Positions 52,673-54,172 of a stretch of 64,000 nt of DNA are shown one piece after another. The DNA lies in NCBI GenBank assembly GCA_026417415.1, contig JAOADG010000024.1, forward strand, positions 1 through 64,000. The letters are read 5' to 3'. The position numbers and the translations under genes were made by a program. The notes below the pieces were generated by a model that was not told the DNA's origin, did not search any database, and saw nothing but the letters and a program-made list of their open reading frames with translations. Origin of the DNA: a bacterium (GTDB lineage Bacteria > Electryoneota > JAOADG01). How positions within the stretch are numbered: the stretch's first letter is position 1; each line of letters opens with the position of its first letter.

Positions 52673-52700
52673 AATGGGTGGTGAAAGCCACCCATTCTTT
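52673..52700 (+). terminator. Rho-independent terminator ending the dsbD unit
   Basis: A 9-bp stem AATGGGTGG (52673-52681) and CCACCCATT (52688-52696), loop of 6, then CTTTTG. It lies just after the ResA-like stop and before the DarT-like gene. Confidence 0.85.
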
Positions 52701-52720: not shown

Positions 52721-53434
52721 ATGTGGAAAAAGTTTTGGCTACTATTCAATAGACCACACAACCATCTTGAATTGGATATCCATCTATATCATTTTACACA
52801 TCTTCGTATCAACCTATCCTCAATTTTAAAGGACCGATCTATTTTATCTTTTCAGAGGTTAACCGAACAATACGGTTATGAAAAAGCCATTACCTTTATG
52901 CATGATTTAAAACGATACGATTTTTATACGAGTGGTAAAAAATATGTCAATTGTGTGATAGGTCGTGCACCTGCCAATTATTTGTATCGTTTAAGTGGAA
53001 AGAACTGGAAAAACGAATGGATAGCATTTGAGATTGATACCAAACTCTTACATTGGAAAACATTTATCATTGCACCAAGCGGTGCAGCATCACTTGATGC
53101 AACATGCATACACGTTCATCCAGAAAATTGGAAAAAAGATATTCAAGTGTGCTTTCAAAAAACAATCCAAAATATAGAAAGACCAGTTGTGGAATTTGAT
53201 TATGCTAAAGAAAGAAAATTTCCAAACGATGTTCCTACTCATCCCAATTGTGAGTTGTTAATACCCAATGAAATTGAATCCACTTATTGGAAAAAAGTGA
53301 TTACATATGATTATGCTGTCAGACAAACCGTACGTATTCTTTTTGAAAAGTGTGGTTGGAAAGAATTTCCCATCCAGGTAAACAAAGAAATTTTTCGTTT
53401 TCACCCCATAAAACTCGCAAAAGAAGTTGTATAG
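52721..53434 (+). CDS. DarT-like ADP-ribosyltransferase (DUF4433), orphan
   Basis: This 237-aa protein matches the layout of DarT, which ADP-ribosylates thymidine in single-stranded DNA using NAD. Residues H24-F-T-H27 with NLSSIL fit DarT's YHITH...NLxxIL start. GRAPANYLYRL (R82) fits the RNPMLYR block, FIIAPSGAAS the TDGNAA loop, and NCELLIPNEI (E178) the QAEFLV block that carries the catalytic Glu. FPIQVNKEIF fits the closing PVEVRPxWYF strand. No macrodomain DarG gene is adjacent; the neighbour is a SIMPL protein. I chose the ATG at 52721. A TTG at 52700 overlaps the preceding terminator. Activity and DNA target are inferred. Confidence 0.6.
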   Translation: MWKKFWLLFNRPHNHLELDIHLYHFTHLRINLSSILKDRSILSFQRLTEQYGYEKAITFMHDLKRYDFYTSGKKYVNCVIGRAPANYLYRLSGKNWKNEWIAFEIDTKLLHWKTFIIAPSGAASLDATCIHVHPENWKKDIQVCFQKTIQNIERPVVEFDYAKERKFPNDVPTHPNCELLIPNEIESTYWKKVITYDYAVRQTVRILFEKCGWKEFPIQVNKEIFRFHPIKLAKEVV

Positions 53435-53446
53435 AGGAATCATTAC

Positions 53447-54172
53447 ATGAACGAAAAATCAAACAAAATAGGAATGCTTATCCTAGGAATATCTTTTATC
53501 GTGAGTGCTATTATTATCGCAGGCGCGTTAAAAAATATCCGTGCAACTTCAGAGACCATTACTGTCACAGGTTCTGCAAGGAAACCAGTGATGTCAGATT
53601 TGATTGTTTGGAAAATGCAAGTCAATGTTTTTGCTTCTACCTTACCCAACGCTTATCAAGAGCTGCTTAGTGAACGAACGAAGGTAATGAACTTTTTAAG
53701 AGAGGCAGGCATTCCAGACACGAGCATTAACCTATCGCATCCTAACTCTTGGGTAGAGCGTCAATACTATGAAGGAAGAAACGAAAGTAGAGTGATAGGA
53801 TTTAGATATGTTCAAAACATTTCTGTGCAATCATACGATATAGACAAAATCGAAAAGATTATCCAATCAGCAGATAAATTGATCTTAAGTGGTGTCAGTA
53901 TTGAAATGCAACAACCGGAATATTTAGTCACAAAGTTGTCTGAGTATCGGTTGTCTTTATTAGGTGAAGCCACAAAAGATGCTCAAGAACGCGCACAGAA
54001 GATTGCATCCGGTATCGGCAGTAAAATTGGAGCAATTCGATCTGCAAGAGTCGGTGTGTTTCAAGTTAATGCCCCAAACTCAATGGAAATATCCGATTAT
54101 GGAGTGTATGATACATCTACACGTAAAAAAGAAATTACTGCAGTCGTTTCAGTGAGTTTTGCTATTCAATAG
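53447..54172 (+). CDS. SIMPL (DUF541) domain protein
   Basis: This 241-aa protein has an N-terminal transmembrane anchor (about 8-27) and a SIMPL/DUF541 domain (about 35-238: ITVTGSARKPVMSDL, GIPDTSINLSHP, AQERAQKIASGIGSKIG, the latter trimmed to its core). The family is periplasmic or membrane bound and linked to oxidative stress and bacterial signalling; the biochemical role is not settled. It starts 12 bases after the DarT-like gene, so they share a transcript. Its 3' end overlaps the GT2 gene tail to tail by 11 bases. Confidence 0.87.
   Translation: MNEKSNKIGMLILGISFIVSAIIIAGALKNIRATSETITVTGSARKPVMSDLIVWKMQVNVFASTLPNAYQELLSERTKVMNFLREAGIPDTSINLSHPNSWVERQYYEGRNESRVIGFRYVQNISVQSYDIDKIEKIIQSADKLILSGVSIEMQQPEYLVTKLSEYRLSLLGEATKDAQERAQKIASGIGSKIGAIRSARVGVFQVNAPNSMEISDYGVYDTSTRKKEITAVVSVSFAIQ

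Follow-up and report, generated by a model that had tools for sequence, protein, structure and literature searches.

A chromosomal relative of the toxin DarT1 with a changed base-contact position and no known eraser found in its genome

The DarT enzymes characterised to date are toxins whose action is countered by an eraser, either DarG or NADAR. In an initial annotation of the window (the whole 64,000-nucleotide stretch of bacterial DNA analysed here), one gene was described as an orphan DarT-like ADP-ribosyltransferase with a SIMPL-domain gene, not DarG, as its direct partner. The features concerned are the following.

52673..52696, plus strand: hairpin of 10 bp followed by a U-rich stretch, between an upstream thioredoxin-like gene and the DarT1-like gene
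52721..53434, plus strand: DarT1-like ADP-ribosyltransferase gene, 237 aa, with H24, T26, D62, R65, D67 and E178 and with G121 at the base-coordinating position
53447..54172, plus strand: SIMPL (DUF541, YggE-like) gene, 241 aa, starting 12 bases downstream of the DarT1-like gene

The frame of the DarT1-like gene is open from ATG to TAG, and a TTG 21 bases 5' of the ATG is a possible but less likely start. The gene has an ordinary GC3, and no signal peptide was seen in the enzyme by inspection. The upstream hairpin is terminator-like and is absent from the consensus-scan list. The protein matched the Pfam DarT profile (PF14487) over residues 23-225 with 33.7 bits (E 3.8e-8; curated cut-off 22.5 bits) and PADLOC DarT weakly (1.6e-5). 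Its score for the NCBIfam DarT equivalog, 15 bits, fell short of that model's cut-off of 150, and no match was found in PHROGs. It was the only DarT match in the source genome, which has a size of 2.2 Mb and is rated 100% complete.

The predicted structure of the protein had a mean pLDDT of 75, a moderate confidence, with low values in residues 1-16, 158-164, and 229-237. With this model, Foldseek recovered eight DarT/DarTG chains (E 1.1e-9 to 1.1e-6) and VIA-align placed DarT/DarTG chains at Z 15.8-19.0. The top match by both methods was E. coli DarT1 with NAD+ (8baq; Foldseek E 1.1e-9; VIA-align Z 19.0, rmsd 3.3, 192 residues). The next fold match behind the DarTs was Tpt1/KptA (Z 6-8 over ~85-104 residues; best Z 7.7 over 104). 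Profile and structure agree on the DarT fold, and the DarT motifs quoted in the initial annotation are present in the protein. The gene is confirmed to encode a DarT-fold ADP-ribosyltransferase, a member of the DarT superfamily (PF14487).

Relatives of the gene are few. A first scan of genome contigs with the single window protein as query gave no match, and searches of plasmids, phages, and viral contigs found no relative. The gene was found in 10 of 61 genomes, namely the source genome, a genome of another genus in the same family (G001), and eight genomes of one other family (f3). A wider search of 386 genomes added just three further, weaker matches. All ten carriers belong to one candidate phylum (KSB1-related), and their genes are chromosomal. 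The G001 ortholog is 47% identical to the window protein and by itself falls below the Pfam DarT cut-off (16.7 bits against 22.5). Since nine further species carry orthologs whose frames are intact and whose catalytic residues are the same, the gene is far beyond a chance reading frame. In four pairs pN was far below pS, with synonymous sites near saturation. All this suggests a resident gene that is passed on vertically and kept by purifying selection.

The ten members are monophyletic (support 98/91). Their clade joins DarT1 and is parted from DarT2 by a 100/99 branch, while the tree fixes no order among the DarT1 lines. A profile of the ten members detected E. coli DarT1 with an E value of 4e-17, whereas the value for Thermus DarT2 was 0.92. 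Within the DarT family, the window protein falls on the DarT1 side. The phylum also has separate, true DarT2-DarG pairs (L038-L043), so mere loss of the partner from a local DarTG does not account for the window gene.

The residues of E. coli DarT1 have been tested by mutation, and toxicity was lost in each of N104A, R52A, D54A, and E152A (PMC11543638). H17, F18, T19, D49, R52, D54, and E152 of that enzyme correspond to H24, F25, T26, D62, R65, D67, and E178 of the window protein. All ten clade members have the equivalents of H17, T19, D49, R52, and E152 unchanged, and the D54 position holds either Asp or Glu. E178 is therefore the conserved catalytic glutamate that had been proposed. The proposed NAD-site alignment held for H24 and E178, which align with DarT residues. 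It failed for R82, as HMM and MAFFT alignments put R52 of DarT1 and R51 of DarT2 on R65. Moreover, R82 is confined to the window's family (two proteins), the eight f3 proteins having a different residue in that column.

The residue that contacts the target base is Asn104 in DarT1 and His119 in DarT2. The corresponding position is G121 in the window protein, an assignment that rests on sequence and HMM alignment at ~20% identity and for which an independent HMM alignment gave the same column. In this column, both members from the window's family have Gly and the eight f3 proteins have Ser, whereas the 24 further DarT1 and DarT2 sequences in the comparison invariably have Asn or His. Other positions have changed as well: M71 of DarT1 is Tyr in the window protein and Leu in f3, Q150 is Asn in the window protein, and F18 is lost in nine of the ten members. 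At the column of the DarT2 H-Y-E tyrosine (Y71), the window protein has V79. Judged from these alignments, the clade pattern is one of NAD+ chemistry kept and base recognition changed.

The absence of DarG, as noted initially, extends from the window to the whole source genome, where the Macro profile gave no match above its cut-off. However, DarG was not the antitoxin to expect. A protein on the DarT1 side of the family would be paired with NADAR-DarT1, which was absent too. The family searched for (PF22397) was checked on the neighbours of the fetched DarT1 genes; profile searches found no NADAR in the source genome and no NADAR-DarT1 in any of 39 genomes of the phylum. In published tests, ADP-ribosylation of guanosine in RNA was reversed by NADARs and by no other hydrolase (PMC11833690). 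Macro was present in 31 of the 39 genomes, but G001, like the source genome, had no match above cut-off. A weak match in the source genome (G000:C39; 14.8 bits, below cut-off) contains an internal stop. PepA was considered as a hidden eraser, and the Macro profile gave no match there. The sole ADP-ribosylglycohydrolase domain of the source genome is fused to a CysQ/inositol-phosphatase-like domain (L131:4114-6003). We rejected it as an eraser because both metal-binding Asp motifs, TDD and GGDTDT, are lost; its ortholog in G001 (L132:2803-4689) keeps them. PARG (PF10021) had no match, which is uninformative since control genomes had none either. Profile searches thus revealed no macrodomain, NADAR, or intact ADP-ribosylglycohydrolase in the source genome, although eraser types of an unrecognised kind could escape such searches.

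Because the NAD+ parts are kept, the base grip is changed, and no known antidote gene was found, the enzyme has probably been re-purposed for a different, non-toxic job. On balance, we lean towards domestication: a DarT1-type ADP-ribosyltransferase, inherited vertically, whose acceptor has changed and which has no antitoxin partner. An ancestor on the DarT1 side would have given rise to a chromosomal, NAD+-dependent mono-ADP-ribosyltransferase that lives without an antitoxin partner. NAD+ would be bound and split as in DarT1, with H24 and T26 holding it, R65 together with D67 acting at the phosphates and in proton transfer, and E178 serving as the ART glutamate. The pocket that positions the nucleobase would be altered by the replacements of N104 by Gly, M71 by Tyr, and Q150 by Asn. 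The acceptor of ADP-ribose would then most likely be neither guanine nor thymine in ssDNA but, for example, a small molecule, a protein, or an RNA. A non-DNA acceptor would explain why NADAR, a macrodomain, and an intact ADP-ribosylglycohydrolase are dispensable. Of the options that the initial annotation had left for an orphan enzyme, a different target is the best match, since every clade member has a replacement at the base-coordinating position. Three points run counter to this reading. Gly or Ser might permit base binding through other residues, the changes at M71 and F18 could mean reduced activity instead of a new target, and an antitoxin of an unrecognised type or DNA repair could guard a DNA-active enzyme.

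The last point leads to the main rival, in which the enzyme still modifies a DNA base (guanine, as DarT1 does), is harmless through low expression, low activity, or DNA repair, and serves defence or growth control without an antitoxin. The complete NAD and catalytic set, including the DarT1-type R-x-D pair, is in its favour. Unguarded DarT1-like genes also exist, as some plasmid genes keep N104 next to no recognisable NADAR gene. However, N104 is essential for DarT1 toxicity (PMC11543638) and is replaced in every clade member, the genome has no eraser of guanine ADP-ribosylation from a known family, and the resident, non-mobile distribution is unlike that of a defence gene. We regard this explanation as unlikely.

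The gene neighbourhood differs between the two families. The SIMPL protein matched Pfam PF04402 with 110 bits and has an N-terminal hydrophobic segment by inspection. Its position as direct partner of the DarT1-like gene was correctly described, and the pair recurs in G001 in the same order with a spacing of 7 bases, against 12 in the window. Within the 12 kb read, it is the lone adjacent pair common to both loci; an MFS gene lies near the pair in G001, and its relative is ~31 kb away on the window's contig. In both genomes the paired SIMPL gene is the only one. Co-occurrence of the two genes, which the initial annotation had suggested examining, holds in both genomes of the window's family but not across the clade: the eight f3 relatives have no SIMPL neighbour, and an MFS exporter gene (EntS/drug-efflux type) adjoins instead. 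In seven of these eight genomes the DarT1-like gene overlaps the end of the exporter gene by 1 or 4 bases. Upstream of both genes, several f3 genomes carry a gene for a conserved protein of ~550 aa (L031:3527-5215 and orthologs). It shows a GNAT-like stretch by eye, has no Pfam or NCBIfam match, and is found in 9 of 39 phylum genomes. Neither an orphan DarT1 clade nor a pairing of DarT with SIMPL was described in the literature searched.

The conserved pairing within the family, kept while the remaining neighbourhood is not shared in place and involving the only SIMPL gene of each genome, would suit a toxin-antitoxin or stress module of two genes, with the SIMPL protein as the restraint on the enzyme. 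However, YggE/BP26-type SIMPL proteins are periplasmic or anchored in the membrane, whereas the enzyme has no visible signal peptide. SIMPL genes also occur in genomes without the enzyme gene, and the f3 relatives dispense with the pairing, so that such a module seems improbable. We give an equally low chance to a modifier of small molecules (a metabolite or an antibiotic, as with Arr enzymes acting on rifampicin) that works with a membrane exporter. The overlap with the exporter gene in f3, often behind the gene with the GNAT-like stretch, is consistent with this possibility, but no MFS gene adjoins the window gene, the GNAT likeness was seen by eye only, and overlapping genes can differ in function. 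A catalytically dead DarT1 relic, decaying or kept for binding, would fit the losses of N104 and F18 and the change at M71, but it is very improbable given the catalytic residues retained in ten species, the intact frames throughout, and the low pN.

The domesticated ADP-ribosyltransferase remains our preferred reading, and a fuller form of it would account for the neighbours too. A DarT1-type toxin may have turned into a resident ADP-ribosyltransferase that requires no eraser, modifies a new acceptor (small molecule, RNA, or protein), and is linked to a different envelope protein in each family: SIMPL in that of the window and the MFS exporter in f3. We hold this wider version only tentatively, and consider it doubtful as a whole. 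If the preferred reading is true, the clade shows how a DNA-modifying toxin can become domesticated, and it supplies natural sequences that separate catalysis from target choice in DarT. The Pfam label 'DarT' alone is no proof of a toxin-antitoxin or defence system.

Other arrangements of DarT1-like genes were seen among the loci examined. In another phylum (G233), the stop of a DarT1-like gene (L109:1474-2139), which lies behind a helicase gene, overlaps the start of an ORF (L109:2139-3549) that appears ADP-ribosylglycohydrolase-like by eye and runs off the locus; this is possibly a DarT1 with a third type of eraser. In Poribacteria, a single frame (L050:5041-7938) combines two tandem DarT1 domains with what resembles, by eye, an RpoD-type sigma factor and adjoins a NADAR-like gene. 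By eye, another poribacterial gene (L049:4492-6690) fuses WD40-like repeats to a DarT1 domain and has a NADAR-like gene after it. Three plasmid DarT1-like genes (L116:3040-3693, L118:2974-3633, and L119:3016-3618) resemble DUF7002 weakly; they keep N104 and have no recognisable NADAR gene beside them.

Among known systems, the closest is DarT1 of DarTG1 (E. coli C7; 8baq), a guanine-specific ssDNA ADP-ribosyltransferase with a NADAR antitoxin. The window protein shares its fold over 192 residues, the H-x-T...D..R-x-D...E catalytic set, and a PTHPxxE motif common to most of the DarT1s fetched. It differs in the replacement of N104 by Gly and of M71 by Tyr and in a genome without a NADAR gene, and its clade is chromosomal, searches of plasmids and phages having given no relative. 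DarT2 of DarTG2 (Thermus sp., M. tuberculosis) is thymine-specific and has the macrodomain antitoxin DarG. It shares the DarT fold, and its R51 and E160 correspond to R65 and E178, but it lies on the opposite side of the tree, with a clade-profile E of 0.92, and the window protein has neither the H-Y-E tyrosine nor a DarG. The likeness to the RNA 2'-phosphotransferase Tpt1/KptA is one of fold and covers only ~85-104 residues. AcrIF11, an ADP-ribosyltransferase of phages and plasmids that modifies the CRISPR protein Csy1, offers a precedent for an enzyme from a mobile gene that acts on protein with no cognate antitoxin (PMC12421852), although the window protein belongs to a different ART family. 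Since N104 is replaced and the NADAR partner is absent, we do not file the window protein as DarT1 itself but place it, with its DarT1 catalytic set, in the wider DarT superfamily.
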